Positions 1 to 34,143 of a stretch of 64,000 bases of DNA are shown piece by piece (positions within the stretch are counted from its first letter, which is position 1; each line of letters opens with the position of its first letter). The stretch comes from Thunnus maccoyii. Lineage: Eukaryota > Chordata > Actinopteri > Scombriformes > Scombridae. The position numbers were made by a program, and so were the translations under genes. The notes under the pieces were generated by a model, which was not told the DNA's origin, made no database searches, and saw only the letters and a program-made list of their open reading frames with translations. Where the stretch lies: NCBI RefSeq assembly GCF_910596095.1, contig NC_056537.1:2828574-2892573 (forward strand), read 5' to 3'.

Positions 1-216
1 CATGAGAGAACTCACAACAGTGATGTTGAAAGATATCGACTTGATTTGACTCATTTGGACGCTGAAGCTTCACATTAGCTTCAGATAAACTTTTAAATAC
101 ATTTTCACACAGAAAGAGGACTGTGGATTTTGTCTCCCATCACTTCCATTGTAAGTGCATTATGAAGGGATCTTCTAATGGTCAGTATGAACAGGAGGAA
201 TGATTATGGCAAGAAA
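1..216 (-). repeat. Dispersed repeat R1, reverse orientation, cut by window edge
   Basis: This segment is the reverse complement of part of the repeat at 19463-19745 (shared blocks around the 'cacttccattgtaagtgc' and 'gaagcttcacattagcttca' motifs). Other copies lie at 8226-8575, 19463-19845 and 31280-31400, with a small piece at 6090-6160. No coding potential is visible. I cannot assign the family by name; it behaves as an interspersed non-coding element. Confidence 0.7.
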
Positions 217-357
217 AACCAATGTCAACTGAAGTTAGTGGTGAGTTCTGAAGCCAAGTTTGTAGGCTGGATTAAAAAGGCCATTAAAATTGAAATTCCC
301 ACCAAAATGGGAACAAGCGTCGATGACCTGGCTCAGCATTTTTGGGCTCTCTGGTGA
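187..357 (+). other. Small 56-codon open frame upstream of the solo 4HB gene
   Basis: An ATG-initiated frame of 56 codons ends in TGA. Its first ten codons lie in repeat R1. The remainder reads as a plausible peptide (GWIKKAIKIEI and SVDDLAQHFWALW are visible) and has a possible splice donor, CTG|GTGAGA, near its end. The frame is kept in unit B (32820-32990), but five substitutions fall within about 16 bp around KMGTSVDD/KMARSVDD. It could be a decayed exon or chance. No family recognised. Confidence 0.15.
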
Positions 358-516
358 GATTTGAAAAGATGTTTTAATGGGAAATATCCTCCTGAGATCA
401 AATGCACCTCTTCAGTTTCAGTTCACAAGATTTTGTTCATTCTGAATTCACTTGGTTTCTGATAAATTCACTTCAGCACAATTCAGTTAGATATGTGTAG
501 GTCAAGGTTTTCTTCA

Positions 517-526
517 TTTCAGTTTC
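517..526 (-). promoter_or_regulatory. IRF-type GAAACTGAAA motif upstream of the solo 4HB coding exon
   Basis: TTTCAGTTTC, whose reverse complement is GAAACTGAAA, fits the IRF consensus GAAANNGAAA. It lies about 80 bp before the splice acceptor of the coding exon, so it is probably intronic. A similar CAGTTTCAGTT block occurs near 412-423. The region is rich in 'cagttt' words, so chance is possible. The motif is conserved in unit B. Confidence 0.25.
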
Positions 527-610
527 AGTTTAACTCAATCTGGTTCACTTGACTGTGACTCCATTTGATTTCATTTCAAGCTAACTATCTGTCTGTCTCT
601 ACAGCTAATC

Positions 611-1456
611 ATGGATACAATAGAACCGATATTGGGCCTTTGTAAAACTATCCTCGACTTGGTTGAGAAGACGAAGACCAATAAGGAGCGCTGCCAACGA
701 CTTGCGCAGAGAGTCAAAGACCTGGAGGAACTGGTTCTGACCATCAAACAAAGGCGGCCGGGTCAAATGTCTGACACTGTAACCAACGCTCTGAAGCAAC
801 TCTGCATCACTCTGGAATCAGCCAGGGAACTGATGAGGAAATATTCCCAAACTACTCGTTTTAAGAGTTTCCTGAAGTCCATGTCTCATGAAGACAAATT
901 CTGCAAGGTGAATGAAAGACTGACTGATACCTTCCAGCTCCTGTCTGGCGCTCTGCAGATCGAGCACGGGAACATTTTGTACGAATTGTATGACAATGTT
1001 TCAGGGAGGAGACGGGGTGAAGAGTACTGCAGTGGCCCCACAGACCCTGTGCCTGCCCCCTGCATGTTGCCCTCTGCACCTCCCTGTAGCCCTATACCTT
1101 CCACACCTGTCACCTGCATGACACCCTCTGCATCTGTCTGTAGCCCCGTAACTCCCACACCTGTCACCTGCATGATACCCTCTGCATCTGTCTGTAGCCC
1201 CGTAAGTCCCATGCCTGTCACCTGCATGATACCCTCTGCATCTGTCTGTAGCCCCGTAACTCCCATGCCTGTCTGCTGCTTCATGACCTCCAGGCCTCTC
1301 TGTAGCCCCGTCACTCCCATGCCTGTCCTTCGCATCATTTCTCCAGTCCGTGTCGGCGCTGTGGCTCCCATATGTCTGCCTGTCAATGTGGCCACCATGT
1401 CTGTCACCAGGTCTATCACCTCCATGCCTTTTTCACTACAAAATAATCCACGGTAA
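611..1456 (+). CDS. Solo MLKL-type 4HB (HeLo-like) domain protein with repeat tail, unit A
   Basis: The 281-aa protein starts at an ATG just after a splice acceptor (ctctacag|CTAATCATGG), the same arrangement as MLKL exon 2, so a non-coding first exon probably lies upstream. Residues 1 to about 130 align along their length with the 4HB domain of the neighbouring MLKL (shared MDTI start, NK.RC.R.AQRVK, ITLESA.EL, VNERL.D.FQ.LS.AL). In MLKL this bundle inserts into membranes and permeabilises them during necroptosis. From about residue 140 the protein becomes a Pro/Ser/Thr/Cys/Met-rich tail built of 18-residue repeats, each full unit with two cysteines. No pseudokinase motifs follow before MLKL starts. 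A possible donor at 1016|1017 (GGG|GTGAAG) sits at the homologous position and in the same phase as the MLKL exon 2 donor, so splicing to other exons cannot be excluded. Membrane killing, regulation of MLKL, or dominant interference are all possible; function is inferred. Confidence 0.8.
   Translation: MDTIEPILGLCKTILDLVEKTKTNKERCQRLAQRVKDLEELVLTIKQRRPGQMSDTVTNALKQLCITLESARELMRKYSQTTRFKSFLKSMSHEDKFCKVNERLTDTFQLLSGALQIEHGNILYELYDNVSGRRRGEEYCSGPTDPVPAPCMLPSAPPCSPIPSTPVTCMTPSASVCSPVTPTPVTCMIPSASVCSPVSPMPVTCMIPSASVCSPVTPMPVCCFMTSRPLCSPVTPMPVLRIISPVRVGAVAPICLPVNVATMSVTRSITSMPFSLQNNPR
1052..1321 (+). repeat. In-frame 54-bp coding minisatellite, five units
   Basis: Five consecutive units of exactly 54 bp start at 1052, 1106, 1160, 1214 and 1268. 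The middle three are nearly identical (PVTCMIPSASVCSPVTPM type), and the outer two are degenerate. Each adds 18 residues, so unit number changes protein length without breaking the frame. Unit B has six units. Confidence 0.92.
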
Positions 1457-1674
1457 CAAGTTATGTGGTCAGTGATTCTTTTATTCCTTAAAACAAGACA
1501 AACATGCTGTAAAAACTTCCACTATTTTGCCTGCTGCTGGGGCTGCTTTGCTGAAATTTCGTAGGGGGCGCTATTCAGCCAGTTTGCATCACTGATGGAA
1601 TATTGTCATGTAGACGTGTTCAGGCCGGGACTCTTATCAAACATATAAAGTTTGGTGCAGGCTGGAGCATTTAC

Positions 1675-1680
1675 AATAAA
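1675..1680 (+). terminator. Polyadenylation signal AATAAA for the solo 4HB gene
   Basis: A canonical AATAAA lies 219 bp after the stop codon, well placed to end a short 3' UTR. It supports the solo gene as a separate transcription unit rather than only an alternative exon of MLKL. It is conserved in unit B. Confidence 0.5.
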
Positions 1681-4600: not shown

Positions 4601-5271
4601 ATAACAGCTGATCAGAGTTTATTCATTCACGCTAGCTCTGTTCACTTGCTAGCTCGGAACAGTTTAGTAGCCTAAAACTAACATTTTGTAAAACTATTTA
4701 TTACAGACATGGCACCAAGGAGACAGACGGGAAAGAAAAGACAGGGAGAGAATGTCGAGGTAAAATAAAATCAGCAGAGAGAGGACATGATGGAGGGTGC
4801 CTTTAAAGAATATAGGGAGGCATCATTTGTTAATTATTTTTGTATTCATACAACACCTGATTCCCTATTTTACTCTGTATTCTCTGTATTACTATGTTCA
4901 ATTGTACTATATGATATATGTTCAAATAAAAAAATATTTGAAGTGAAAATGAATGTCTCAATTTACCTCACCAGTTGTCCCATTTTACCTGAACATGCCA
5001 ACAACGTGAGAGAAGGGGTCTTGGTGTGTTTGAAGGTCTGTAAAAACAAGTGTTCTTCTAAACAAGTATACTTTACTACATCATTTCAAAACAGAAATAC
5101 TGCAGAGATCCGTGATAACTTATGAAAACATCAGTGGAGTGAGGAACCAGCTATTCGCATGGTCTCCTGGTAATTCTACCAAAAAATGTCCTAAATGACC
5201 TGATTCCACTTAACTCCCGGAGATAAACAGGAAATTATGAGCTAAGGGAGGAGCTGAAAGCAAAAGAAGTC
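1681..5271. other. Intergenic region between solo 4HB gene and MLKL
   Basis: No convincing gene is seen in 3.6 kb. Open frames at 2024-2314, 3650-3976 and 4787-5125 have low-complexity composition and no recognisable domains. A short MAPRRQTGKKRQGENVE frame (4709-4759) lies between an acceptor (ttattacag) and a donor (gag|gtaaaa) and may be a relic transposon exon. No residual pseudokinase exons are recognisable. Confidence 0.5.
4576..4597. repeat. 22-bp perfect palindrome within short direct repeats
   Basis: A perfect palindrome centred on CCTAGG, TACATTAGCCTAGGCTAATGTA with arms read from 4576 to 4597, lies at the end of several imperfect copies of 'aaagtacattagcctagcca' between about 4517 and 4585. 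It is kept in unit B at 37241-37262. It may be the core of a small inverted-repeat element. Confidence 0.7.
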
Positions 5272-5285
5272 AGTTTCACTTTGTC
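5272..5285 (+). promoter_or_regulatory. ISRE-like element upstream of MLKL, unit A
   Basis: AGTTTCACTTTGTC matches the interferon-stimulated response element (AGTTTCNNTTTCNC) except at one or two core positions. It lies about 65 bp before a splice donor that probably ends the non-coding first exon, so it would be promoter-proximal. Mammalian MLKL is interferon-inducible, so a functional site is plausible, but the motif is imperfect. It is identical in unit B. Confidence 0.4.
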
Positions 5286-5289
5286 CTAG

Positions 5290-5350
5290 CGCGCTCAAAA
5301 CCTGCATACCTGGTTCGAGACGGACAGCTCTCACTGACTTCAACTTTCAG
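5290..5350 (+). other. mlkl: Probable non-coding exon 1 of MLKL (5' end uncertain)
   Basis: The coding exon of MLKL begins seven bases after an acceptor, so an upstream non-coding exon is needed. The best candidate ends at the strong donor TTTCAG|GTAAATAA (5350|5351), just after the ISRE-like motif. The transcription start is guessed. Confidence 0.4.
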
Positions 5351-5400
5351 GTAAATAATCTTTGTTTTTCCATCATAGCTAAACTAAACTCACAGCCTGG

Positions 5401-5853
5401 TCGCCAGAGTAAAACGTTGGCAGTTTACGTTTCTGCAAACCACAGAAACGTTGAATATCTACGTTTCAATACATGTAATACATAGGATATTAACATTTCA
5501 ACAATACGTATCATATCAAAATGTCAACAATACGTATTATCTCAGCATTTCTACAAAACGTATCATCTCAACATTTCTAAAGTGGCGTACGTAGCTCACA
5601 TGCGGTATATGAGCTGACATTCCTGTTAGGAGGAGGAGGGGTTGGTGGATGATTAGTAAGTTTGTCAGGAAGAAAGTTGGAATCACCAAGTGGTCTTTGT
5701 GCTTAAACCTAAACAGAACTTAACCACAGCGCTGTCACGCCATATAACATCATTATTCAACGGGTAGAAATGTTACTATGCTACGTATGTAGAAATGCTG
5801 ATAAGATACTGTGGTTTGCAGAAACGTTCAATGCCAACGTTTTCCTCTGGCGA
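5401..5853. mobile_element. 453-bp MITE with 45-bp terminal inverted repeats in MLKL intron 1
   Basis: The left end (5401-5445, TCGCCAGAG..AAAACGTTGGCA..TTTCTGCAAACCACAG) is an imperfect inverted copy of the right end (5809-5853). The interior is non-coding and rich in ACGTAT words. Exact ends and target duplication are unclear, so the superfamily is not assigned. It sits 50 bp after the probable exon 1 donor. Confidence 0.75.
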
Positions 5854-6089
5854 TAAGGTCGCAACTCCGCAGCTTACGGCTCTTCTTGAGTCCTCTTGTT
5901 GATTCTGTGAGCAGGTTAGTGTGCTGCAGAGTCAGCATGTAGATCAGTAGCGCAGGAAGTCATTTCTCTACATGTTACAACAAGTTTCGCTTTCGCTCTA
6001 TAAATAAATCTGAAGACAAATAAGAAAAATGCTGAAAATTTTATTTATTTTATTTTATTTTATTTTAGATTTGAGTTTTGTAGAATATT

Positions 6090-6160
6090 TACAGTCTTTT
6101 TAGCATCAAATTCCCTCTTTGTGTTTCCTCGGACAGTGTTTCCCAGTTGAGCTGCAGTGA
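6090..6160 (+). repeat. Fragment of dispersed repeat R1
   Basis: The block 'acagtctttttagcatcaaattccctctttgtgtttcctcgg' matches the 3' part of the R1 copy at 8226-8575. It follows an (ATTTT)n microsatellite at about 6037-6066. The rest of MLKL intron 1 (5854-7696) shows nothing coding. Confidence 0.6.
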
Positions 6161-7702: not shown

Positions 7703-10700
7703 ATGGACACCATAAAAAACATCCTGTCCATTGCATCAAAGATCTACACCCTGGTTGAAAATGTTAAGGCCAATAAGAAGCGCTGCCACCGTGTCGCCCA
7801 GCGAGTCAAAGCCCTGGGCGAGCTGGTGGGGTCCATCAAAGAGGGGAAGGAGATGGTTTTAGAAAAGGCTCTAAAGGAACTCGCCATCACTCTGGAATCA
7901 GCACAGGAGCTCATCGAGAAATACACCTTGGCCAACTGGATGGAGTGCATCCTAAAATATCGGAGCCATGGAGACGAGTTCAACAGTGTGAACGAACGCC
8001 TTGACGACGCCTTCCAGGTTCTGTCTGTAGCTCTGAAGGTTGAGCAGGGGAACATGGTTTGCCAGATTTTTGATATGGCACAGGACAAGGTGGACGGGTG
8101 GACGGATGATGCAGAGCTGAAGAAATGTGAGGGAAACTGGTTTTGGCTTTGCCTTTGTAGAGTAGATTAAGCAAAAGTCAGATGGTCCATATGAGCCTAA
8201 ATTTGATTTTTTAGTTTTAATCTTAAAGGACAGGTTCACCGTTTTTTCAAGTGTGTCTTAAAACAACAGTCAGTTGTCCACATGAACAGTGAAAGAGGTT
8301 TTCCTCGCTGTAATCACTCCTCCTGTTCATACTGGATATTAAAAGATCCTTCAAATGTGCTTTCAGTGTAAGTGATGGAGGCCAAAATCCACAGTGTGTC
8401 CACACAGTCATTTAAAAGTTGATGTGAAGCTTATATTCAGCTTCAGCAGTCTGAGTTAGTCATATCAAGTGGACATCTGACACATTTACAGTCTTTTTAG
8501 CATCAAATTCCCTCTTTGTGTTTCCTCGGACAGTGTTTCCCTGTTGAGTTGCAGGTGGAAGTATAGTAACAAAAACCCAAAGATATTCAGTTTACTCTCT
8601 GAGAGGACTAAAGGAACCAAAAAATATTCATATGTAAGAAGCTGGAACAAGAGAAATTTAGCATTTTTTTTTCATAAAAAATGACTCCGAGCCATAAATC
8701 GATTATACAAACAGTTGGCGATTAATTTTCTGTCAATCTACTAATCGATTAATCGATCATTGCAGCTCTAAAAAGCCTAATTGAAGTCTGTTTCTTACTG
8801 TAACCAGACCTGACTAACATAAAGATATGAGTTCAGTGTTTTCTAAATTGATGTTATTTCATAAGATCGAAGAGTAGAAGAGTAGAGAGGTTGGATTGGA
8901 TTCAGAGTCTGGTTGTCTTTGTATAATCAGTGTTTGTGTGTTCCTCAGTGATCCTGGACCACATGAAGGAGCAGAAGGAGAAAACGGACGCCATGCTGAT
9001 CAACGTGATAAAATTCATGGAGATGTGTGAGTACACTAAATCTCTTAAAGGGGTCATATTCTGCACATTTCTAGGTCTGTATTTATATTCTGGGGCTCAG
9101 TTAAAAACTCCTTATTTATCTTATTCTTTTTTCTTTTTTTTTTTCTTTTTTTTTTTAAAAAAAGGTATTATTTTTAAACACAAGCCAATTTTTTCAATAA
9201 AAAATAAATAAACAAATGTTTTTAAAATTATTAGAATTTTTATTATATGTGTGCACATGTGTATGTGAGTTACTGCCGAACACAAATATTATGAATGAAT
9301 AATAGGAATTGAACCAATACATTAACACTTTTTTAAGAAATAAGGAAACATCAAACAATTTTATTTAAATTAGTAATAAAAATATATAAATTCTTAAATT
9401 GATTTTTTCTCATGTTAGAGATAATAGAAGCCATGAAAATAGTTGTAGGGGCAGCAAAAGTGGAATAGAAGCTGAAGCATTAATCAGAGTAGTATTAGTA
9501 TTTCTAATTATTATTATTTATCTGTAAATAAATGTTGAATTATGTTCCATTCATTTCTTTCCCTCCTCGAGCTTCAGTTGCTGATTGTAGACGCAGTGAG
9601 TCAGTTTGCTTTGCTTCGATTCGCAATATAAAAAAAAACTATTAAAGTCTTAAAACTAGGCTTTGAGACAGAATCCATCTTCCAGACCATAAGATGGAGG
9701 ATGGACCTGTAATAGCTGATGTTGCAGCTATCCAGTGGTGCAAATTTCTAACAAATTTGCATTTTCTCAGATTATCCAAATGATACGGAGACAACGTGGG
9801 TGTTTTGGGTCAGTTGCCCACTTTGCCTGCTTGATAATCCAGCCTTGCTTGTAACTTTGTTTTTTACAGTGAACAAGCCCAGCCCCAGTGATGAGGATAT
9901 CCGTCTGATCAAACCAGAGGAGCTGGAGTACCCCAAAGAGAAAATCGCGAAAACATCAAACTCAGAGATTTACAAAGGACAGTACCGCGGATTCACAGTG
10001 GCCATCAAGCGATACAGCAACCCTGTGAACACCTCCCCAAGGTAGAGAATAATACCAGTGTGGCTTTATTTTTAATTCTATTTAATTTACACCAGTATTT
10101 CAATTGACAACTCTGCCTCCTTTAGAGCCGAAAGCTCTATCACTAGCACTATCTCTTCTTCTGCAATGTGTCAGTGGTGGAATGTAACCAAGTACATTTA
10201 CTCAAATACTGTACAGTTTTGAGAGACTTGTACTTTATTTGGGCGTTTCTTTCTTTCTATTTACTCCACTACATTTATCTCACAGTTGAAGTTGCTTTCC
10301 AGATCAATATTTTATAAGTAAATTACATGATGTGTTGTTATAGAGGCAATAACAGTAGCTGCATTAAAATGCAATTAACATGTATACGTCAGTGAATATT
10401 AATATTCCAATGATGTATACCATTATATATGATAAATATAACACTCTAAATGTGGTTGAAAAATTTTACTTTTAATACTTCAAGTACATTTTGCTGCCAA
10501 TACTTTGTAACTGTACTTTTACTTCATTTTAAATGCAGGACTTTTACTTGTAATGGAGTATTTTTTCATTGTGGTATTGCTAACTAAAAGATCTCAGCAC
10601 TTCTTTAACCACTGGCAGGATTGTACCTATCGGTGTTCCAAAAATCCATTAAAAGACAAACTTCTGCACTGAATAACACAGTCAAATGCAGATTAATTGC

Positions 10701-13700
10701 TGGACTACTTACCCTCTTTACACATAGACTGCGTCTACAGTAAGCCACTAAATTCTAAAACGCTGTTTTTGAGCATGAATGACCTGCGTCCACAGCAGGA
10801 GTTCAGCTTGTTTCTGCAAATACCTCCGTCTACATTGAAACGCCAAAACTGGTAGTTCTCCTCCTACTGAGCATCTGCAGAGGACAGACAAGGCAGTCAG
10901 CCACAGAAAACCAGCAAAGAAGAAACTGTACACCATTTACGTTTCTGCGGCGGCTTTCTGACATTTAGTTTATTGCAGCAGATTACAACAGTTTGAGTAG
11001 AGAAAGGTGGTAGATAGCTATGTTTAACTCTAAACAAGCTGTCAAAGCAGACCATAAAGATAACAACACTCGCATGAAGCCGTCCACCATTGTTGTTATT
11101 GTTTACTCAAATACTGCACAATTTTTCCTGTGAACACTACAACACCAAGCCGGCGTTTTCAAATTTGCACACTCTGGAAGCCATTTTGGAAATAGACATG
11201 TCCACACTAAGCCAGCTAAATTCGTAAATGTATCGACTTCTCTCTGTTTTGGCCCTCCATCCACAGTTTTTCTTCTCTGAAAACGGAGCTTTTCCAAAAT
11301 GGCCTCCGGAGTGTGTAAATGTGAAATCGCCGGCCTGGCATTGCAGTGTGTACGGGAAAAATGGAGCTTCGCGAAAACGCTGTCATACAAAAAAATGGTG
11401 GCAATGGTGCGGAGTTTCATTGGAAGAGGAAGAAGAAACACGGCAATAACTAACACAGTAGGAGCAGAACGAGTTGAAACTCTTGAATTTATTTGGCTTA
11501 ATGTAGATGTGGCCACTCATGTGTCCCAGATACTGTAACTCAAAAAACTTACTCCATCTAAGATGCAGCTCTGATTTTGAGATACATTGTGACCCTAATT
11601 TGCTTAAATCTATAATCTATAGCATTTGACCATGAGGAAATTAAAAGTGTATGAATGTGGTATTTGAATATTAGCTGAGTAAGAGACGTAAAATGACAAC
11701 AAGTCAAATAGACATTGATTCCTTCCAGCCAGTCGTACTGATATTAACACACCGACATCACTTTGAGCTCAGAGTTTTTTTACTCAAGGATGTGACTCAC
11801 TGTATTTGCCACATATCAACAAAAACATTTTCTCTATATTTAGTGTGGTGGAGGATGTTTTCAAGAAGGAAGTTGAAACCATGAAGCGCTTTGAGTCACC
11901 CAACATCCTGCGAATGTTTGGTATCTGCAAGCAGGCTGAAGATGGTGAGTAGACCACAGCATCACAGAATATCAGACGCATCACAAGCTGGCTGTGATGT
12001 TATTCAACCTGTTGTTTCTTTGTCACTGTCACATTACTGGACATAAATGATCTGGGAGTCAATTTTTAAAAAATTAGACTTTGACTATAGCTTGGATCTA
12101 ACTTATAGTCAGTCTTCAGATAGACGTCTAGATTCATCCGTTGCATAAAGGTGTCTAGTCTTTGACTCTCTTAACCCTTAAATACTGTTCATATTCTAAC
12201 AGTGTCCCCTCATAATTAGTTTCTACACCCATTTTCTGAAGAACAAAGCTACTTTTCATTCATAAATACATCATCAGTCATTAATAAATGGATGATTAAT
12301 CCTAAATTAAGCTTTCAGGGAGCAGAAAGTGTATTTCATCATGAAGAAAAAACATTCACAATCACACTATATTATGGTCCTATGTTATATTAAAACAGGA
12401 GAACATAACAGCCATGATGATTTCAATAAATGTTATATGATGTGAAGAATGTTTTTGATTTTTTTTAACAAATAATAACATAAGATATAAGATATAAGAC
12501 ATTTTTGTATATTCTGGGAAATATTCTGGGAAATATATATTAGGAAAGGTTATAGAATGTAATGCTAAAAGAAAGGTGTTTGGGATGTTTTTAAAGTTAA
12601 ATTTAAAAAGTTTATTTATTTAAAGTGCAAAATCACACCAGGGTGTCTCAATACACTTTACAGCAGTAAAACAACAATATTTTACTGCTCTCAAATGTAA
12701 AAATTGGTCAAATCTGACCTGAACAGTTAAGTTAACTTGAAAGTGAGTGTAAATTAAGCCTTGTTTTAAACTAAACACCATGGCTGACTGAGTAACTGAC
12801 TGCGTCAACCTGCTCAGCTACCTTCACCCCAGCAGAAAACTTCTGCCTTCTGTCCAAACACTACAGAACCGGCCTCTGATAACACTCTCCAACCTGGTGG
12901 TCCTAATTAATGTTGTACAATAAAAGCAGTAATGTATTATTGTGTTAAAATGATTCACATAGCATCTTTAAATTATAATAATATGACTTGTATTTGTGGC
13001 TGCCTGAAGGATCCAACCCTCAGTACCTCATCATCACCGAGTACTGTGAGAAGGGAAGTCTGCGACAGGTTCTGGACTCGAAATGCGAACTGTCCTGGAC
13101 CAGGAAAGCTCGAATGTGTCTGGACGCAGCACAAGGACTCTACCGGTCAGACTACAACTAATAATTCTTTGTCTAATTTACTGGCAAATTTCAATTATGT
13201 GCCAGAAATGATAAAACACAAAGAAGGAGATAGGAGGAGATACACACAGTCAGTACAGGCAAGACAGGAGTTTTATGTTTTCAGAAAATCCAGTGAATTA
13301 GACAAATCAACCTCATGGTTCAGGAGTTTTTTTTTTGTTTGTTTTTTTTGTTGAGTTAATTAGGCATCAACATAAATACACACATAACATGAACTACAAC
13401 ATAGAGAGTAACAAAGAGAATCCTTACATGGCTGAGACAAAACTAAACTCTATACAGATAAACAGTGACATACAAATATGCAAATGCATACACAAATAAT
13501 AATACATATTGCTATAAAGGTCTATATATCAAGGTTCAAATAATTTCATCTGGTTTTGTTTTGCTTTTTAAATTTGAATAGTTTCTAAATTTGTCCAAAA
13601 GTCACAATTCATATCAAAATGCCAAATTCTGTGAAATTCCTGGGTTTCCCTTGAATGCTAAATAAGCTTTACAAAGCATCAAATAATTTGAAAGATCAAT

Positions 13701-16700
13701 CTTCATCTGCTCTGAATGAGTTGGCAATAGCAATGCATTTCCGAACTTCCAATAGTGCAAGATCAATATATATTTTGTTATGTGAACTCCACCTGTCATG
13801 TCTACTAGTACCTAATTGAACAAAGTCTAGGATGTAGCGATATATATTATAGTTCATGCACAGAAGAGATTTCCAAAATGCGGTAAAAAGATCACATGAC
13901 CACAACATAAAACCACCTATGACTCAGGAGTTATGAGCCAATGTGTGTGTCCTGTCGACTAGTACCTAATTAAACAAAGTAAGTAAGTAAGTAAGTAAGT
14001 AAGCTTTTATTTATATAGCACTTTTTAAAACACACAGTTACAAAGCGCTTCACAGACACATACACATGCAAAATTGAAACAGATAGATTAATAAAGAAGA
14101 CAAACATGTAGACAAAGTAGCAAACATGACACAGAGAGAAATCAACCAGCATGAAATAAAACAGGACATGGGAACAAGAAGGGAGGTCTATAGAAAGGCT
14201 TGACGATATAAATGAGTTTTGAGGCGTGGTTTAAAACAGTCCAAGGATTCAGCAGGTCTAACAGATAGTGGAAGATGGTTCCACAGAGTTGGGGCTAAGA
14301 ATGCTAATGTGCAGTCACCTTTTGATCTGTGGTTTGTGCAGGGGATAGATAGAGGGCTGAGATTTGAGGATCAAAGAGGTCATGTAGTGGAATGAGGAAC
14401 AAGAAGCTCAGAAATGTAGCTAGGGGCGAGGTCATGGAGTGCTTTATAAGTAATCAACAGGATCTTGTAGTTTATTCTGAATTTTACCGGAAGCCAAAGG
14501 AAAGAGGCATGAACAGGGGTAATGTGGGACCTAGGGCTAGTTCTGGTAAGAAGTCTAGCTGCTGTATTTTGGATTAACTGTAAGCGTTTTAGAGAAGACT
14601 GACTGAGGCAAGTGTAAAGGGAGTTACAGTAGTTAAACTGGGAGAAAATGAATGTGTGGATTAATTGTTCAAGAACTGTAGGGGGCAATATAGGTCTTAT
14701 TTTAGCAATATTTCTTAACTGAAGAAAACAGGACTGGACAAGCTTATTAACATGATGGTCAAATATCATATACTGGTTGAAGATGATAATGAGATTCTTA
14801 GCAGTGGATTTAATGTTCAGGTGAAGTGGGCCGATAAACTGAGGAGCAGCAGTGACAAAGATTTCAGGACCAATTAAAAGAACTTCAGTTTTGTCAGGGT
14901 TAAGATGGAGAAAATTTGGGGTCACTTTGGTAGCAGCTAAACACTCATGGAGGGAGGACAGTTGATTCAAGTTATTGGGTTTGGCAGAGAAATAGATCTG
15001 AGTATCATCGGCATAACATCAGCATAGGATGTAGCGATATATATTATAGTTCATGCACAGAAGAGATTTCTAAAATGCGGTAAAAGGATCACATGACCAA
15101 AACATAAAACCACCTGTGACTCAGGAGTTATGAGCTAAAACATTTATGATTGATTGATTTACAAATGGCCACATAGTGGTGCTATCCAAAAACATATAGT
15201 TTGTTTCTATATTTCTACCAAATATCACTGAGATCTGTTTACAAGTTTTTGAGATATTACACTAACTAACAAGACAAGTAGACAAATGGCACCGAAAACA
15301 TGATCTTCATATTAAAATAAATGATTAAAAATGAATACATTTGGACACTAGGGGGCAGAATGACTATCATATGATTGCCTTATAAATTTTGCGGCTTGCA
15401 AGATCAGACAACAACATGATCATCCCAATGAACTTTTATTTGTATCCATGTGATGAACGTAACAAGACTTTCACACTGTATGACCGTATAAAAAGACATA
15501 GCTGTCAGTCAATGCCCACACGGAAGACATCAAAGCTACTATAAGTCTTCAAATCTTATTAACGGAGCAATGATTTCCAAAATGACCACCAGCACACTTA
15601 TTAGACGGCCTTCATTTAGAGACTGAGACCAGAATGACTCATTGAAAACAATGATTGAGAGAGGTTGAGGCTTTTTGAATGGGAGTCAGTTGGAGCAGCT
15701 AGCAGCCATCGGTAGTACTTTAAGGTACTTCAGCCTCAAGACATGGTAGCTGCCACTTTTTGACATCACACAGAGAAAGGACATTATTTCTAATAAAGAC
15801 AGAGGCTGCTCTCTCTCAGGCAGCGCCATGTTGATTTTCCTCCAGGTTTTGTGGCCAAAGTTCTACTGAATCAAACTATGACCCCAAATACCCTGACATC
15901 CATAATGTACAGCCAATGGGACTCGGCATCGACAGGAAACTGAAGTTATGACAGTGACGATTTTACTGCAGAGATAAATGGAGGACAAGTTATCTTTGTC
16001 CAGTCCCACCAGGAACTGCATAAAAACATGGCAGATAATATCAGAGGATGGTGAAATGAATATTGTGATTGTCCGCAGTTTCCCCGTTCGCTGCCTTTGT
16101 ACATTTATGTGCTGCTCTTCATTCTCCACACTACCTCCTGCAAACTATCAGCTCCTGAAGCCACCATAAGTCCAATATTCACTCTCCTTTTAGCTCTGGT
16201 TTGATCTCCACCAGCTCCTGATAGTGAAAAATATCTGGCTCTTTAGCCTCTAGATGTTCCACTTTATTCACCAGTTAGTGTCTAATGTTGTCTGTCTGCA
16301 GTTTGGTCAGGTGGGCAGGTGGGGCTTTTTTAACAGAAAACAGCTGCTGTTGCTGGAACCATACAGTAAAAGTGCTGTAAAAACAAAACTAGTAGTTGAA
16401 AGATGCTCTGTGGTTCAGACAAGCAGTCGTTTCTGTTCCAGTGTTAGTAAAAGAAATATTGATTACTCCAGCTTCAAATTAAATTCAATGTTCATGAATT
16501 CTTGTTTATAATATAAAGTTCTAATGATTATCACTGTTGTGTCTTAGACTGCACCAGACAGAAGAGAAAAGTAAGGTACATGGATGCATCAAGAGCAGCA
16601 GGTTCCTGGTGGATGAAAGCTACAGAGTCAAGGTAATTAGTAACCAGTGCATGCTGGGATTGCTTCTGGCCCATTGGATAGTGAAAACAAATAAAGTCTT

Positions 16701-19700
16701 GACATTGTTGTTTGTGGTTTTTGGTACAGTTGGCAGGTTTTGAGCTGGCGAAAACTGAGTCGTCGCTGAGAAAGATGACGAAGGGTAGAGACAAAAGGTC
16801 GCTGTGCTACTCCTCTCCTCAGATGCTCAGCAACCTCAACCACACCTACAGCAAGGAGTGTGAGATTTACAGGTCAGACACCAACCAGGAATTACACCAG
16901 ACAGCTGCTCAACACCCGCAGAGATATTAAATTATGTTAAGTTGTTACTGACAGCTTTATGAATACTTTACTAATGCTTTATGGATCAGATATAAGCCGT
17001 TAATAAGTGTAAATTTAGGTTAGCCAGGATGTGAAGAATCCTTTTATCATTTCCATGTGGTCAGAATTCATCATCAATGTTGGTAATTCATTCATAAATG
17101 TTGAAATAAGCCGGGAAGTCTCTAATACATAGAAAAATTAATACAGTCGATGTGAGGTGTGGATGAGTATATACACCAATAACATGAAATAAACTAACAG
17201 TACATTATACACAGATGATATGAAATGGTTTCTTCCTACAGACAACTGATACCCCCTGCCGGTGTGGATAAGGCACCGACAGACGGCTGTCCTCTACCTC
17301 TGACCTAGATATCGAACGTAGTACCCAAAATCTACACACAAGACGATCCAAGCCTTGCTTAGGAAACCAAATTCAGCCTGGCTTCTATAATCACCAGCTG
17401 TCGTTGAACCACTATTAACGGGCCTATTTACTCAGGAATTCCTAACAGCCATGAGTGACAACGAAGTGTATTGGTGCAAATAGGTGTTGGAGGTCAGGTA
17501 ACGGGTAAAAGGGCATCTCTGGAGGAGGCCCACTCTGACGGCCAATTAAACCCCTAATAATAAATTTCTCAACCTAATTCTATTCTGACATCATACATCT
17601 ATCACATGTACAGCAACATGTTGACCTCAGTCACTAAACCTGAACCATTGCCCTCCTGTTATTCAATAAACACTGCAAATGTATCTTTAACAAATTTCAA
17701 CATAATTTTTAATCAAAATAAATTTAAATCTAATGTCAGTCTATCCCAAAGGAGGTGTCTTTGCTTACCTGGGAGAAACCACAAGACCTCAGAGATGAGC
17801 ACAAGTCTTTGGAGTGTGTAAAAACACAAACCAGTTTTATTTGGTTTTACAAAATAAGTAATCTAAGAATGCAAATTGTAAAATACAAAAACTTGAGCAA
17901 AAAATTAAAAAGCATAAAGCTAAAATCTAAAGAGAGTCTCAAAGAGATCTCTCTTGAGAGGTTCCACAAAAAGAAAAGGGAACCTCGATGCTCTCTTGGC
18001 TTTTCTTTTTATAACTCTACAACGCCCTCTTATTTGTATTACCGCATATCGTCTTTCTCCAGGACATATATCAGTTACATGCTGATGTTACATGACTTTA
18101 TACAAAATAATGACCTTTTCTTTATCTGTCACTTACATCAGATTACATGGATTTTTTGAACTTCTTCTTTTTTACATTTGAGATTAAAATCAGGGATATC
18201 TGCTAGGTGCAGAAGACCGCTTCTCCTTTGCCTCAGGTTATCTGACGGTTGTCTATGTTTTTGATGTTTGTTTGTGTTTAAGTCATTCTTGACAGTTCAG
18301 ATCTACTTCAGTACAAATTACACAAATTGTGTAAATTTCCCACAAATGGTGCAAGACACTAAACTATGTTTAATTTGTCACCAATTAAAATTGAATAAAA
18401 TAGTCAGAAGTAGGCTTAAGTAGAGTTTGAGACAAACTGGTTTTAAACTGACCGCAAAAATTGTTTGCACTACTTTACACACATAACAACCACAGTCGTT
18501 GTGTATCGGGCTCTGAGCACTTTGCGGGTGACCTACGCTCAACAATGTACCTGAACGCCTCCTTAAAAGCTTTGTTTTCACTGTCTACTTTTCTCTTTTT
18601 AGAGCACTTTGCTCTGAGCACTTTTCTCTGCCTTATGTCACACCTCGTGTCTGATCACTCGCTGACTCCCTGACTATCGCATATCAAAATTGAACCAAAT
18701 TCAACACAGCACTTCCTTTTGTCGGTCTAGAGTTGATCAGATGAACAGTTCAAGAGATACGCGAAGGACATACAGACATACAGACAGAGATTCCTTCCTT
18801 TAGTAGAGATTAATAAAGGCTTGTGACTTTCTCATTTTCTAATGAGCAGATATTCATGGTTCCCAGAGGATGAATCCTGCTGACTTTTGTGATCTCTTGA
18901 CTTTCCACTAGCGCCACCAGGAGGTTGACATTTGTAGTTCAAAGTGAAATATCTTGACAACTATTGCAGATATTCATGGTGCCTGAAGGATTAATTCTAA
19001 TGACTTCGGTGATCCTCTGATTTTTCATTTAGCGCCATCATCTGGTCAGAATTTAATTTTCTGCAATACTTACATAATACCTGCAAAAGTAATGACATTC
19101 CTATCAGGTTCAGATGTACTTTGTGTTTAGCTCATGTCATAGAAATGATTAAAAACAACAACAAAAAAACTCTCTACTTCAAGATGCAAAATTTCTTTTG
19201 AAGAACAAGAAAAAGTTTGTACAAAAGATTGCTCCAGACGTTGCTGATTTTATCAGGACATGTGCTCATGGAGAGAGCAGAAAGGATCTTTCTCTGGCAT
19301 TTTCCCTACAACACTTCATACTGTATTACAAACAAGTCATCCCATTGGGCCGCTCCAGAGACACCGAGGCTAAACAAAAGGTAGCAGCACAAACACTACA
19401 GAGTACAAAAAATCTAGTGACAAAGTTAAAAGAAAAAGAAAAAGTTTAAAAGTCAAAACACTTAAAGGGCAGGTTCACAATTTTTCCAAGTCTGTCTTAA
19501 AACAACAGTCAGGAGCCCAAATGAACATTGAAACATGTTTTTCTTGCTGTAATCATTCCTCCTGTTCATACTGACCATTAGAAGATCCCTTCATAATGCA
19601 CTTACAATGGAAGTGATGGGCGACAAAATCCACAGTCCTCCTTCTGTGCAAAAATGTATTTAAAAGTTTATCTGAAGCTAATATGAAGCTTCAGACGTCC

Positions 19701-21930
19701 AAATGAGTCAAATCAAGTAGATATCTTTCAATGTTACAGTCTTTTTAGTGTCAAAGTTCCTCTTTTTGTTACTATACTTCCACCTGCAGCTCAACAGGGA
19801 AACACTGACTGAGGAAACACAAAGAGGGAATTTGATTTGATCTGATAATGTTAAAGCCATAAAACACTGAAAAAGGCCACTGCTTTGCTCAATCTGCAGA
19901 TATCAGCTGATGACTTCCCACTGCTCTCTGGTTCTCTGTCTATAGATGAGATGGACCAATGATTGAGTGAAGATTCTCAAATCAAGCCATAAATCATTTC
20001 TCACTATCTTGTAAATGTTGTCTTTCAGCTTTGGGATCGTCCTGTGGGAAGTTGTGACCCGTCAGAGACCTTTTGAAGGTGTGTATGTGCAGAGCGGACA
20101 ACAGCATCCAACCATAAAGCAACACAGCTTCATGCTGACCACAGCCACTGCTCTCTGTGAAAAGAGGAAACTTTTATCTTTTAACAGCTGCATGTCAAGC
20201 CTGCAGTAGTTAATCTTCCATCCACCAGTTCCCTGTTAAAACCTCTTTGCAAGATATCTTGATGTCCTGTTTGACAGCGATTTATAGTTATTAATAGGTC
20301 ATTAATGAATGTAGAAACAAACAATTTTAGGCATGAAATTTGTTATAATCCCTCCTAGAGCTGCAACAATGAGCTATTTTAATAATCGAATCATTGTTAT
20401 TCTACAAAACAAAAATGAAAAATATTTGCTTGTTCCAGCTTCTCAGATGTGAGGATTTGATGGTTTTCTTTGTCTTTGTCTTTCTTTGTCAATTTGGGCT
20501 GTGGGAATTTATAAAGAGCATTTTTTTCACTACTGTCTGACATTTTATAGACAAAACTATAAATGGATTAGATAAATAATCGTTAGTTGCAGCCCTAATC
20601 CCTCCTGCACCGCTGCTACACTTTTACACACACATAACTCAAATCACAGATTGTGGCTTTAAAGTAAAGTTAAGCTTTTTAAAGAATTTAAATATTACAC
20701 ACAATCAGATCCTCAGATATGTGCATTTCTAATCACTTTAAATTTACTGCTCCTGAATAAACTGCTTTATGCTGCAGTGCGTTGTATGTTACTGTTGTGT
20801 TATACTGTATTTCTTCCAGGTTGTTCAAATGAGGAAATCAGTCAGAAAGTATGCAATGAGAAATATCAAGAGCCGCTCCCTGACGACTGTCCTGAACCAC
20901 TGAGATGTCTGATCAACGCCTGTCGGACCTATGATAGCTTCCAGAGGCCATCTGCTGGAGGTAAATTACAATCACTGTCATCACCATACACAGGGTCACA
21001 TTAAAGGTGCTGTAGCTGCTAGAATGACTTACAATGAGTGGACAGGTTTCAGTGCATGATTTGATACTGTATATAGAGACATTATTTTATTGGATTATAA
21101 TCAGTGATGGAAGAAGTATTCAGATCCTTTATTTAAGAAAAAGTACCGAAACAGCAATGTACAAATACTCCATTACAAGCAAGATGTAGTCAAAGTATTG
21201 CAGTAAAAGTAGTGGTTTGGTCCCTCTGACTGATATATTATTATATATGACATCATTAGATTATTAATAGTGAAGCATCAGTGTTAGAGCAGCATGTTAC
21301 TGTTGTAGCTGCTGGAGGTGGAGCTAGTTTACACTACTTTATATACAGTTAGCTAGTTTAGTCCAGTGGTTCCCAACCTAGGGGTCGGGCCCCTCCAAAG
21401 GGTCAGCAGATAAATCTGAGGGGTCGTGAGATGATTAATGGGAGAGGAAAGAAGAAAAAAACAAAGTTCTGATACACAAATCTGTTTTCAGTTTTTGGAC
21501 ATTTTCTCTAACCTTTGATTTGACCTTTAACAATGTAGTGTAATTTATGAGCTCATAATATGTTATTTATGTAAAATTTTAATCTGAAAACTAACTAAAG
21601 CTGTCAAATAAATGTAGTGGAGTATAAAATACAATATTTCCCTCTGAAATGTAGTGGAGTGGAAGTATAAAGTAGCATCACATGGACATACGCAGAGTAC
21701 GCATAGTACAAGTAAAGTACAAGTACCTCAAAATTGTACTTAAATACAATACTTAAGTAAATGTATGTAGTTACTCTCCACCACTGTAAAACCTCATTCT
21801 AAAAGGTTGTTTACACTGTTAGCAAGCATCTCTAATAATAATAATAATACTAATACTGGGTCTATTTTTCTCTTCTACAGTGCTGGTGGATAAACTGCGC
21901 AGCGTGGTGGCACAGATGGAGGAGGAATGA
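7703..21930 (+). CDS. mlkl: MLKL, mixed lineage kinase domain-like pseudokinase, unit A
   Basis: Ten coding exons with GT/AG boundaries and consistent phases: 7703-8126, 8949-9026, 9870-10041, 11844-11944, 13010-13145, 16548-16632, 16730-16872, 20029-20078, 20820-20960 and 21881-21930. Joined they give 1380 nt, 459 aa, close to the usual MLKL length of about 470. The 4HB executioner domain is residues 1 to about 135, the brace about 140-185, and the pseudokinase about 190-455. Visible motifs: a glycine-poor nucleotide loop ([10 protein letters not shown]), VAIK with K214, alpha-C E234, HG at 315-316 with K319 in place of HRD, and GFE 335-337 in place of DFG, the diagnostic MLKL combination. 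Possible RIPK3-type phosphosites are S343/S344 after [16 protein letters not shown] follows from residue 380. Known role: after RIPK3 phosphorylation MLKL oligomerises and permeabilises the plasma membrane. Reading through the exon 2 donor would give a 155-aa 4HB-only product. Versus unit B it lacks two residues before the pseudokinase. Confidence 0.93.
8226..8575 (+). repeat. Dispersed repeat R1 in MLKL intron 2
   Basis: This region is homologous to 19463-19845: it begins with 'aaaggacaggttcac', passes through 'ttcatactg' and 'cttcagcagtctgagt', and ends near 'gcaggtggaagtatagtaac'. Non-coding. The unit B equivalent is at 40899-41248. Confidence 0.75.
8693..8772 (-). mobile_element. Fragment of hAT-like MITE (GCAGCTCTA end)
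   Basis: The tail 'ctaatcgattaatcgatcattgcagctcta' is the reverse complement of the terminal sequence of the MITEs at 20356-20597 and 22051-22400. Only one end is visible. Confidence 0.55.
9033..9180. other. Truncated repeat and poly-T tract, deletion relative to unit B
   Basis: After the exon 3 donor comes 'aaaggggtcatattctgcaca', the start of an interspersed repeat. In unit A it stops after 'atcttat' and runs straight into a C-interrupted poly-T tract, while unit B holds 331 further bases (41798-42128) at this point. The simplest reading is a deletion in unit A ending in the tract. The rest of intron 3 to 9869 is AT-rich and featureless. Confidence 0.6.
10172..10575 (+). mobile_element. 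CAGTGGTGGAA-type MITE, partial, MLKL intron 4
   Basis: It begins CAGTGGTGGAATGTAACCAA and contains 'gtacatttactcaaatactgtac' and 'tactttta' words, as in the element at 21102-21786. The opposite terminus is not clear, so this is probably a truncated copy. The TIR resembles hAT-derived MITEs of fish; assignment is tentative. Confidence 0.6.
10722..11530. mobile_element. Probable MITE or non-coding repeat, MLKL intron 4
   Basis: The stretch has internal inverted and repeated words around 'ttcgcgaaaacgctgtcata', 'aaaacgctgtttttgag', 'tttgcacactctggaagccattttgg' and 'ccaaaatggcctccggagtgtgtaaa'. The last two are clear inverted copies (about 11166-11192 against 11296-11320). Overlapping open frames on both strands are a by-product of this symmetry. 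Confidence 0.5.
13804..15136. repeat. 154-bp tandem repeat split by a LINE insertion, MLKL intron 6
   Basis: 'actagtacctaatt(g/a)aacaaagt' occurs at 13804 and again at 13958, giving a 154-bp period. The rest of the second copy ('aggatgtagcgatatatatt' to 'caggagttatgagc') resumes at about 15025-15136. The LINE at 13980-15023 therefore inserted into the second copy. The flanking repeats are a pre-existing duplication rather than a target-site duplication. Confidence 0.7.
13980..15023 (-). mobile_element. L2/CR1-like LINE 3' fragment, minus strand
   Basis: A minus-strand frame of 196 codons (14380-14970) encodes the C-terminal end of a non-LTR reverse transcriptase. [47 protein letters not shown] and [16 protein letters not shown] are motifs typical of fish L2/Rex/CR1-type elements. 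A 3' UTR with 'tttatttatatagcactttttaaaa' and a terminal (TAAG)n tract at about 13980-14002 follows. It lacks the 5' two thirds, including the catalytic core, and so is dead. It sits antisense in MLKL intron 6. Confidence 0.85.
15137..16547. other. mlkl: Remainder of MLKL intron 6
   Basis: No exon or gene is recognised. The stretch includes repeat-like text around 15175-15310 and short unrelated open frames at 15863-16511 without domains. Confidence 0.4.
16873..19462. other. mlkl: MLKL intron 8, 5' part with unclassified repeats
   Basis: Intron sequence between the GFE exon and the SFGIVLWE exon. From 17220 to 18150 there is moderately GC-rich unclassified sequence that may be an old transposon. 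From 18720 to 19075 there are two diverged copies of a repeat carrying 'cagatattcatggt', 'tagcgccaccaggaggttgac' and 'tagcgccatcatctggtcag', common in fish genomes. The 83-codon frame at 19198-19449 is Lys-rich, lacks an ATG at its start, and is unrecognised. Confidence 0.45.
19463..19845 (+). repeat. Dispersed repeat R1 in MLKL intron 8
   Basis: This is a well preserved copy of R1, from 'aaagggcaggttcacaattt' to 'ctcaacagggaaacactg', and the reference against which the other copies in the window were matched. Confidence 0.75.
20348..20605. mobile_element. hAT-type MITE with 8-bp target-site duplication
   Basis: The element spans 20356-20597 (242 bp). It starts TAGAGCTGCAAC and ends GTTGCAGCCCTA, near-perfect terminal inverted repeats. 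It is flanked by the exact direct repeat ATCCCTCC at 20348-20355 and 20598-20605. An 8-bp duplication is the hallmark of hAT transposases. It lies in MLKL intron 9, and the same insertion is in unit B (53252-53509). Confidence 0.88.
21102..21786 (+). mobile_element. 685-bp CAGTGATGGAA/CCACCACTG MITE in MLKL intron 10
   Basis: The 5' end is CAGTGATGGAAGAAGTATTC and the 3' end is GTTACTCTCCACCACTG, giving an inverted pair. The interior includes 'ggttcccaacctaggggtcgg'. Related or inverted pieces occur at 22776-22950 and 27218-28029. No clear target duplication was found. Confidence 0.7.
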
Positions 21931-28240: not shown

Positions 28241-31200
28241 CAGCTACATAGAATACGGCTGGAGATTGTCGATGTTTTTCTTATTGTCATCAAATCTCAT
28301 GTTTCGAGTCAAAACAACAATGAACTGATCTACTAACAAGTATTGTGTGTGTATGATTAATGGGAGAGGAAAGAGGAAAAAACAAAGTTGTGATACACAA
28401 ATCTGTTTTTATTTTTTGGACTTTTTCTCTAATCTTTGATTTTTGGTGAAATATTGGATTTTTTGAACATTTATTGAAATGAAAGCATGTGAGAAGTTTA
28501 GAGGGAAAAATCACTATTTGGTGGAGCTGTTAACAACTCATAGACATGTGAAATGTGACAAGGAGCCACAACTACACACTGATTTTATACAAGAGCTCAC
28601 AAGACTAAAAGGTTGGAAACAACTGATTTAATATTTAATAATGTGTTGTATCTTATAATCTGATCAAATGTGTTTTATGTAAAACTGTAATCTGAAAAGT
28701 AACTAAAGCAGTCAAACAAATATTTGTATTGTCTGAACCCCCTGAACAGGGTGAGCAGGTTGAACAAATGGATGATTATTGTTATTGTTCTGTCTATCGC
28801 AATGCATTGGCATGACGTCAGATGCTTCAGATGTCTCAGATAAACACCTGAGAAGAATAAGAAAGGTGCATAAGAGTGTGATGGCACAAATTTACTTTCA
28901 TTTCTTCAGGTGGCAGACTCGGATCCAGAAAGGCTGCTTCCAGTCAACATCCAGTCACAGGTGAATAATCTTTTAAGGTTTTTGATTGTTTCTAACTAAC
29001 TGAACTCATTTCAAAACTTTGCTTCTTTATGAGATCTTACATGTTTCATCACAGTTCTGTGAAAATGATGCATCTCCAAAATGTTCACTATTTATGGGCT
29101 GAGAAAAGGCTGCTTTCAGCTTTGTGACAGTGGATTTTTCAGATAAACCAATGCATTTTTAAATGGCTTGTTTTGCTTAGAAGGAGGACAGTTTTCTCAA
29201 CACATAAAGGAACATGTAAAACATTGATAAACAGTAAATAAACAATCAATATAAATGGTTTTTAACACACTATTATAATGTAGTTGTAAACAGATATAAT
29301 AGTTAATAAATGTATTTGTGTGGTCACCCATAACTGGATTCTGGTGTATAAACAGATAATAAATGACAATATGGTAAAACACAGTTATGATAATATTTAA
29401 AAAATGTTTTCATGAGAGAAGTTATAAAGGTCGACAAATACTGCACATTAATAAACACTTAAAAAGGTTCTTATATCTACGTACAACTGCATTATGGTGT
29501 GTTATAACCCATTTATTAAATGTTTATATACTGTTTATAATTGCTAAAAAAAAGGGGACTTACAGTAAAGTGTTACCAAACATTTAATCACAAAATTTTA
29601 AAATGTCCATCTTTGGAGATACATGGTTTTCACTGGATAGTGAAAATATATGTAAAAGACTCTTTTACAGACACCTTTACACATTTTATAAGCAGGTAGA
29701 CTGATATTATACATATGTACAAGTAATGTGTACATGATGTTACAGGCAGATGATGGTGGCAAGTGTTTGTTGTGCACAAAAGTGTATTTATCTGTCAACA
29801 CAGCTTCACACAACAGTGTAGGAAGACTGTGTCGGCTTTAACTAAAATAACTCTACGTGGGATAAAACATGGTGGTAAGAAAAGAGTTTCCTTTACTAAG
29901 CTTTGAATGTAAAGTTTGTAAGCACTGAATAAAATTACAGTGGCAGTAATTTATGCCCTGGAGCATTTCAAACTCCACTTTCATGAACCTAAGCATGCGG
30001 AAAGTGTTCATGACTATGAGACTTCTGGGAATTCATGCAGATAACATTCTAACCTCACACACCCTCACGAAGGTGGTTGTCTCTGTGACACTCAGCATTC
30101 TTTCACTGTAAAGGCGGCGACGGACTTCACACACACACACTGATATCAGATTCAGATAAATCCTGTAGTCAAAGAATCTCAGCTGTGAAGAAAGTGCAGT
30201 GAGCATGTCCAGTTGGCTGACTTACTAATACTGCAGTGCCCGTTCAAAATGTGCCTGTTTGGAACAGGCCGACATCTTATTATTTCTCAAGAACCGCATA
30301 TATATGTATAAATTGACAAACGTATCAATTAAAACAATAGAGATTTACTAAATTAAATGGTTTTAATCCAGGAAGATAATTCAGCAGAGACTAAACTGAG
30401 GATGAACCGTGGAAGCAACTGCATATATATATGCATTAACTGACAATCACATCAATTAAAATGACATGGACTTAATAAATTAAAGAGGTACTGCACACTA
30501 AAACATGTTTTTTGAGCTGTAAACTAAGTTATATGACTGTACTATGATGAATCACATCAACGCTGGTGTTAATAATATTAACATTGAAACCAAATTTATA
30601 AAAATTGGTATTTCATGGGTTGAAAATGGTTCGACCTGTTATCGGCTGTTTAAAATCAGCCCAGAAAAGGTGGTGCCAATGCTGATGTCGACAGTTTGGG
30701 AGTTCTCTACGCATGAAATTTACAGAAATGGTAGAATGATAACGGCCACCTCCCACCAGGACCTGCACTCATAAATCCTCCTCGCTTCTCACCATGCAGC
30801 TCTTCAACTCTCTGGCTGTCTGTTCCTGCAGCTATCAGCTGGTAAAATCTTGCAGAGCTGCAAAGCTGCAGAGCTGCGGTTTGACAGGTTTAGTAAGGTC
30901 TGAGGTTACACCATGATTTAACATTTAAAAAAAATTATACCAGCAGATAACTGCAGGAACAGACAGCTGAATAGTTAAAGAGCTACAGGACAAAATCCTA
31001 AATGAATCGTTTAAATGTCATTGCACCAAAAAATTTTTAGGGGGAAGGTATCTGTTCCTTTACTATTCATGTGTAGCAACTACATTACGGTTAAGTTACA
31101 TTGGCAAATTACATGATGTTCTTTACCATAAAAATGTAACCTTGCTGCCTTAAAGTTGTGAGGTAACTAAACTTGTACTGAATAGCTGGTTTAATTTTAT

Positions 31201-32165: not shown

Positions 32166-32172
32166 GAGGTTG

Positions 32173-33243: not shown

Positions 33244-34143
33244 ATGGATACAATAGAACCGATATTGGGCCTTTGTAAAACTATCCTCGACTTGGTTGAG
33301 AAGACGAAGACCAATAAGGAGCGCTGCCAACGACTTGCGCAGAGAGTCAAAGACCTGGAGGAACTGGTTCTGACCATCAAACAAAGGCGGCCGGGTCAAA
33401 TGTCTGACACTGTGACCAATGCTCTGAAGCAACTCTGCATCACTCTGGAATCAGCCAGGGAACTGATGAGGAAATATTCCCAAACTACTCGTTTTAAGAG
33501 TTTCCTGAAATCCATGTCTCATGAAGACAAATTCTGCAAGGTGAATGAAAGACTGACTGATACCTTCCAGCTCCTGTCTGGCGCTCTGCAGATCGAGCAC
33601 GGGAACATTTTGTACGAATTGTATGACAATGTTTCAGGGAGGAGACGGGGTGAAGAGTACTGCAGTGGCCCCACAGACCCTGTGCCTGCCCCCTGCATGT
33701 TGCCCTCTGCACCTCCCTGTAGCCCTATACCTTCCACACCTGTCACCTGCATGACACCCTCTGCATCTGTCTGTAGCCCCGTAACTCCCACACCTGTCAC
33801 CTGCATGATACCCTCTGCATCTGTCTGTAGCCCCGTAAGTCCCATGCCTGTCACCTGCATGATACCCTCTGCATCTGTCTGTAGCCCCGTAAGTCCCATG
33901 CCTGTCACCTGCATGATACCCTCTGCATCTGTCTGTAGCCCCGTAACTCCCATGCCTGTCTGCTGCTTCATGACCTCCAGGCCTCTCTGTAGCCCCGTCA
34001 CTCCCATGCCTGTCCTTCGCATCATTTCTCCAGTCCGTGTCGGCGCTGTGGCTCCCATATGTCTGCCTGTCAATGTGGCCACCATGTCTGTCACCAGGTC
34101 TATCACCTCCATGCCTTTTTCACTACAAAATAATCCACGGTAA
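33244..34143 (+). CDS. Solo MLKL-type 4HB domain protein with repeat tail, unit B
   Basis: 299 aa. It is identical to the unit A protein except for one additional 18-residue repeat in the tail. In the 4HB part I see three nucleotide differences from unit A (GTA/GTG, AAC/AAT, AAG/AAA), all silent. The splice acceptor before the ATG (ctctacag|CTAATCATGG), the in-phase cryptic donor GGG|GTGAAG and the downstream AATAAA are all kept. Two intact copies that differ only at silent sites and by a whole repeat unit argue that the frame is maintained as protein, though very recent duplication alone could also explain it. Confidence 0.8.
   Translation: MDTIEPILGLCKTILDLVEKTKTNKERCQRLAQRVKDLEELVLTIKQRRPGQMSDTVTNALKQLCITLESARELMRKYSQTTRFKSFLKSMSHEDKFCKVNERLTDTFQLLSGALQIEHGNILYELYDNVSGRRRGEEYCSGPTDPVPAPCMLPSAPPCSPIPSTPVTCMTPSASVCSPVTPTPVTCMIPSASVCSPVSPMPVTCMIPSASVCSPVSPMPVTCMIPSASVCSPVTPMPVCCFMTSRPLCSPVTPMPVLRIISPVRVGAVAPICLPVNVATMSVTRSITSMPFSLQNNPR
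33685..34008 (+). repeat. In-frame 54-bp coding minisatellite, six units
   Basis: Six units of 54 bp, one more than unit A. The extra unit is a copy of the PVTCMIPSASVCSPVSPM type, so it arose by unequal exchange or slippage within the array. Confidence 0.92.

Follow-up and report, generated by a model that had tools for sequence, protein, structure and literature searches.

A four-helix-bundle-only relative of mlkl and its doubled locus

The window analysed here, a stretch of 64,000 nucleotides, carries on its plus strand an open frame of 281 codons (611..1456, with ATG at 611 and the stop ending at 1456), whose predicted product of 281 amino acids contains the N-terminal four-helix bundle (4HB) of MLKL. 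From its sequence, this frame is best read as a partial mlkl duplicate, a second and diverged copy lying beside a complete mlkl. The fuller reading that we tentatively adopt, with somewhat less than even confidence, is that such a duplicate forms a single coding, terminal exon and places an MLKL killer domain under the control of transcription; the product would probably act as a killer or a modulator.

The MLKL_N four-helix-bundle domain covers residues ~1-131 (611..1003, plus strand) according to Pfam PF22215 and to the alignment with mouse MLKL 4btf. The Pfam model matches residues 4-131 with 121.1 bits against a cut-off of 27, phmmer aligns 4btf without gaps over residues 1-131 (E 2e-08), and the seven distinct PDB sequences matching the frame up to E 1 are all MLKL, 4btf being the best. 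The likeness stops after about residue 131, where a short linker leads into an array of 54-bp repeats. No kinase Pfam match was found in the frame and the two-helix brace is absent from it, the mouse alignment ending at residue 131. When the brace-plus-kinase protein of the neighbouring gene was used in tblastn, the best matches had E 0.96 in 1-7690 and E 1.8 in 27800-40370, so that no kinase or brace relic beside the gene was better than E about 1. The first-pass annotation had described an MLKL 4HB with MDTI, ITLESA and VNERL motifs, the lack of a brace and pseudokinase, and a Cys/Pro/Ser repeat tail at the C-terminus, and all three are borne out, the tail being an in-frame 54-bp tandem array. 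Its idea of a 4HB-only gene gains partial support from a 4HB apparently kept by selection and from the finding of no kinase exons of its own.

The neighbouring mlkl (7703..21930, plus strand) is complete, with 10 coding exons, GT-AG borders and an open frame of 459 aa. Its protein contains MLKL_N (127.2 bits) together with kinase domains in Pfam, and its best PDB match is again mouse MLKL 4btf (E 2.3e-79, residues 1-453). The completeness of this gene, with a putative upstream exon of its own, had escaped the first-pass annotation.

Self-comparison revealed that a large unit occurs twice in the window, 1-27789 corresponding to 32634-60696, and this doubled unit of ~32.6 kb comprises the 4HB-only gene, the full mlkl and a TRIM gene. 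A second 4HB-only frame, which the first-pass annotation did not contain, is present as copy B (33244..34143, plus strand, 299 aa); it has one extra 54-bp unit, and its protein carries one additional 18-aa unit relative to copy A with every other residue identical. The 4HB exon of copy-B mlkl has its ATG at 40376. The two units differ by 235 substitutions in 27633 aligned bases (0.85%), a count taken over three aligned blocks and excluding 14482-14575, and the divergence is uneven, with zero substitutions between 20402 and 24460. The doubled unit could represent either a recent tandem duplication or two haplotypes set in tandem by the assembly. Compared with copy A, one kinase exon of the copy-B mlkl also has a 6-base in-frame insertion (9929 / 42934).

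Selection on the four-helix bundle

The 4HB of the 4HB-only gene and that of mlkl are identical at 63 and different at 61 of 124 aligned residues, and the Nei-Gojobori estimates are dN 0.40 and dS 0.91, with a ratio of 0.44. Despite this distance, the MLKL_N score of the 4HB-only gene (121.1 bits) stays near that of the mlkl 4HB exon (127.6 bits). As a neutral control, the mlkl 4HB was drifted in ten runs by half of dS 0.91 with stops forbidden, mlkl substituting for the true ancestor as an approximation; the resulting MLKL_N scores were 12.5, 37.8, 18.6, none listed, 22.0, 16.5, 14.0, 23.1, 53.4 and 41.3 bits, and thus all ten neutral descendants lay at 53.4 bits or less. Under one neutral model, 4.2 nonsense hits would be expected in the first 150 codons and 0 were observed; under another, 0.1% of 2000 runs remained free of nonsense over 372 bases, as the 4HB-only frame does. 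The codon score of the 4HB is 0.15 in the 4HB-only gene versus 0.49 in mlkl, a comparison that favours mlkl since it belonged to the training set.

Between copies A and B, the 4HB-only frame has substitutions at 781, 787 and 877 (3 of 846 aligned bases), and all three are synonymous third-position changes, an outcome with a chance of 0.024; the computed synonymous share of random changes in this gene is about 0.29, close to the 16 synonymous versus 38 nonsynonymous differences of the TRIM copies. The density is also lower in the frame than in the rest of 1-5000 (3/846 versus 46/4131, one-sided P 0.023). With so small a number of events, and with mlkl itself differing by 0 synonymous and 2 nonsynonymous changes, the comparison of the copies is only suggestive. 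Taken from the sequence, the 4HB part of the gene looks to have been under selection through a long divergence. This constraint could stem from an era in which a kinase was still attached, or from continued use of the neighbour's kinase.

The repeat tail

Following the linker, about five units of a 54-bp tandem repeat run in the reading frame and encode a Cys/Pro/Ser/Thr tail (1052..1327, plus strand); TRF reports 5.1 copies with 86% matches in copy A, and the unit translates to 18 aa. Neither codon score nor synonymous excess gave a coding signal in the tail. The repeat units differ by 26 synonymous and 83 nonsynonymous changes in the reading frame, no improvement on the other frames, which give 35 and 51 (plus 11 stops) and 20 and 83, and the codon score in the reading frame (0.10) is the fifth among six frames. 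Random sequences matched in dinucleotide make-up stayed open in 18% of trials when a unit was repeated five times and in 4% when the repeat was absent. Copies A and B have zero substitutions across 878-1942, the longest such run in the first 9 kb, which says little because three longer substitution-free runs lie further along the window in largely noncoding DNA. A Pfam match to PKAT_KLD in the tail (18.8 bits, cut-off 27.7) was dismissed as chance on a low-complexity repeat.

The simplest origin of the tail is that it may be a former intron, read through after the loss of a splice donor, and the lack of coding constraint means that it may be a by-product of that loss rather than a functional part. 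Otherwise, the Cys-rich VNTR tail, which is longer in one copy than in the other, might help the protein to oligomerise or anchor it to lipids.

The unconstrained tail, and the ease with which a repeated tail stays open by chance, would also suit a once-functional mlkl copy whose kinase was lost not long ago and which is decaying without (useful) expression, and the codon score of its 4HB, positive but below that of mlkl even if mlkl was in the training set, points the same way. Against such decay, the frame is intact in both copies, the three changes between them are all synonymous and are fewer than in the surrounding 5 kb, and no kinase relics were detected in the 3.7 kb downstream, where a recent loss should have left some unless the deletion was clean. 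We regard decay as improbable, the least likely of the explanations considered.

Transcript structure and splicing

The 4HB-only gene and mlkl share a 5′ layout in which a putative noncoding exon is followed by an ATG six bases past an acceptor. The acceptor-like CTCTACAG lies at 597..604 (plus strand), six bases 5′ of the ATG, and its mlkl equivalent is at 7689-7696. A putative promoter-proximal or noncoding first exon was placed at 5217..5350 (plus strand) for mlkl, with donor CAG/GTAAAT at 5351, and at 28847..28960 (plus strand) for the 4HB-only copy B, with donor CAG/GTGAAT at 28961 (score 4.66); the copy A counterpart would fall outside the window. The homology of these exons rests on local alignment of stretches picked by eye, in which 28847-29008 and the mlkl segment score 54, a value reached by 0 of 300 shuffles (maximum 40), and blastn of the wider upstream regions printed no match at E 1. 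Homology of the introns just upstream of the coding exons was considered and set aside as weak, since 6 of 300 shuffles attained its score. At the 3′ side, an AATAAA polyadenylation-signal-like hexamer occurs at 1675..1680 in copy A and at 34362-34367 in copy B (plus strand). The first-pass idea of a free-standing gene is supported further by the upstream exon-like segment at copy B, and by an mlkl 4HB-to-brace donor that has no usable counterpart at the matching place in the 4HB-only gene.

Donors were compared by a simple position-weight score. The mlkl 4HB-to-brace donor at 8127 (3.61) has its equivalent at 1047, where the nearest GT (1049) has the wrong phase and a score of -4.68. Among the phase-1 GTs of 980-1456, the highest score belongs to a weak donor-like GGG/GTGAAG (1017..1022, plus strand; score 0.14), and 8.8% of 308 background GTs reach its score. 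Since this weak donor has the phase that the brace exon at 8949 calls for, a transcript might be spliced from it into the brace and kinase exons of the neighbour, and the 611 exon could then be an alternative first coding exon that gives mlkl another killer domain, with the tail as an intron. The failure to find kinase exons belonging to the 4HB-only gene would fit, as would a tail whose unit differences and codon score give no sign of coding constraint, and in-frame fusions in phase 0 from 908 (4.53) or 1202 (2.04) to the mlkl exon from 7697 are conceivable. However, the score of donor 1017 is under those of all 10 mlkl donors (0.74-6.34), and the splice would bypass both the putative upstream exon of mlkl and its 4HB exon and would cross three AATAAA hexamers from 1675 to 2229. 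Weakened in this way, the alternative exon is unlikely, though we rate it above decay.

For the terminal coding exon that we tentatively prefer, the duplicate would have brought along the 4HB exon of mlkl and, as observed at copy B, its putative upstream exon, would have had no kinase exons of its own, and would have lost a usable 4HB-to-brace donor. With no usable donor and no kinase exons, the transcript probably continues through the repeats, past the stop at 1456, as far as the AATAAA at 1675. We infer that the gene is transcribed and translated, and the predicted protein would consist of an MLKL killer domain and a probably unstructured tail, without the restraining pseudokinase or the RIPK3 phosphorylation sites. 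Once expressed, the 4HB might oligomerise and permeabilise membranes, alone or with full MLKL; if it is active as soon as it is expressed, the control point would be transcription rather than RIPK3.

Killing capacity and the alternative of a decoy

Isolated N-terminal domains of other MLKLs have been shown to kill. The 4HB of flounder MLKL alone kills HEK293T cells and slows the growth of E. coli, whereas the full-length protein does not (PMC10825024), and among 22 invertebrate MLKLs tested, the N-terminal domains of several kill human cells (PMC11476962). Human MLKL 1-125 and 1-201 kill, 1-154 is inactive in HEK293T cells, and human isoform 2, in which much of the pseudokinase is missing, kills more strongly than isoform 1 does (PMC4725247). 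The inactivity of 1-154 makes the effect of length unpredictable and counts against our preferred explanation; an always-active killer would also be costly to carry twice, and the tail gives no sign of coding constraint, both of which count against it as well.

Residues required for killing elsewhere were mapped onto the 4HB-only gene by hand, with nine single rotifer mutants covered and a tenth, double mutant left out. Eight of the nine rotifer killing positions are kept (Ile7, Ile14, Cys28, Arg34, Phe97, Asn101, Leu104 and Leu111). The exception, placed by motif spacing, is Gly113 at the equivalent of rotifer L115, whose mutation impaired killing (PMC11476962), and this too speaks against the preferred explanation. 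At flounder Asn105/Asp106, which were mutated together, the gene keeps Asp106 and has Thr105.

These two exceptions, at positions mapped to residues that other MLKLs need for killing, could instead suggest a decoy or dominant-negative protein, in which the 4HB plus tail would co-assemble with full MLKL, or occupy the chaperones or membrane lipids that it uses, and restrain necroptosis. Such a role would agree with the position beside a full mlkl and the homologous upstream segment, and a bulky tail could block assembly. The eight kept rotifer positions and the kept Asp106 argue against it, as does the frequent killing by isolated 4HBs in the cited papers, and we consider a decoy less likely than the alternative exon, if slightly more so than decay. 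Because published isolated 4HBs kill and the mapped positions are mostly kept, our inference favours a killing-competent domain controlled by expression, with the decoy role second.

The strongest form of the favoured explanation would be a brake-less executioner gene, born by partial duplication and 4HB-only since birth, selected through a dS of about 0.9, amplified along with mlkl, and governed by transcription in place of RIPK3 phosphorylation. Taken as a whole this is doubtful, albeit less so than splicing to the neighbour's exons. In the current view, the MLKL pseudokinase restrains necroptosis. If expressed as its own protein, the 4HB-only gene would represent the killer part without the usual safety switch, and if this holds true, animals would be able to separate execution from the RIPK3 switch, the gene would offer a natural test of the contributions of the pseudokinase and the brace, and MLKL genes would be undercounted by surveys requiring both domains.

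Relation to known systems

Like full-length MLKL, the 4HB-only gene has an N-terminal 4HB with conservation at the family level; it differs in lacking the brace, pseudokinase and RIPK3 phospho-sites, in carrying a 54-bp repeat tail, and in occupying a separate locus. Its likeness to the RPW8/HeLo-type four-helix killer domains stays below threshold (RPW8 in Pfam, 25.2 bits against a cut-off of 30.4), the MLKL_N match being far stronger. Poxvirus MLKL homologues keep a pseudokinase-like part and are not known to have a 4HB. They are truncated MLKL relatives too, of which the 4HB-only gene, as a host gene, would be the mirror image; such homologues are mentioned in PMC12119088.

Human MLKL isoform 2 (MLKL2) likewise lacks the activation-loop sites and the larger part of the pseudokinase, but it is an alternative splice product of a single gene and, as far as described, keeps the brace region, whereas the present gene is an apparent diverged duplicate from which the brace is absent (PMC4725247). 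Duplication of mlkl itself is shared with other fish, as 31.1% of 174 species of Actinopterygii have 2-4 MLKL copies (PMC11476962). That survey of 868 MLKLs excluded sequences in which the N- or the C-terminal domain was not intact (section 4.1), so that 4HB-only genes would have been discarded by its filter. A sea-cucumber MLKL is activated by cleavage (PMC11932488), and full-length stickleback MLKL was among nine orthologues tested (PMC7305131). In the available parts of PMC11932488, PMC12119088 and PMC7305131, no information on a 4HB-only gene was found. Literature searches, whose coverage left out most subscription journals, listed no title or abstract opening that describes a vertebrate MLKL gene encoding the 4HB alone. 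A kinase-less MLKL is thus already known as a human splice isoform, and within the literature covered none turned up as a gene of its own.

Other features of the window

Searches of the whole window for structured RNA or tRNA gave none at the thresholds used, and a search for relatives in viral contigs gave 3 pattern matches, none of them confirmed. The interferon-type element GAAANNGAAA at 517 was rejected as a candidate, since 10 occurrences on both strands in 64 kb mean that the match at 517 is not evidence.

The TRIM gene of the doubled unit is one open frame with RING, B-box, coiled-coil and PRY-SPRY (24634-26298 and 57538-59205), and the synonymous to nonsynonymous ratio between its copies is near neutral. 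A partial third TRIM copy is suggested at ~61000-62800 by short weak matches. Within the mlkl intron region, a reverse-transcriptase-like ORF lies on the minus strand (14380-15018) and contains a YADD motif. An interspersed repeat in both orientations occurs around the mlkl genes, at 26-219, 8297-8478, 19537-19731 and 31309-31396.
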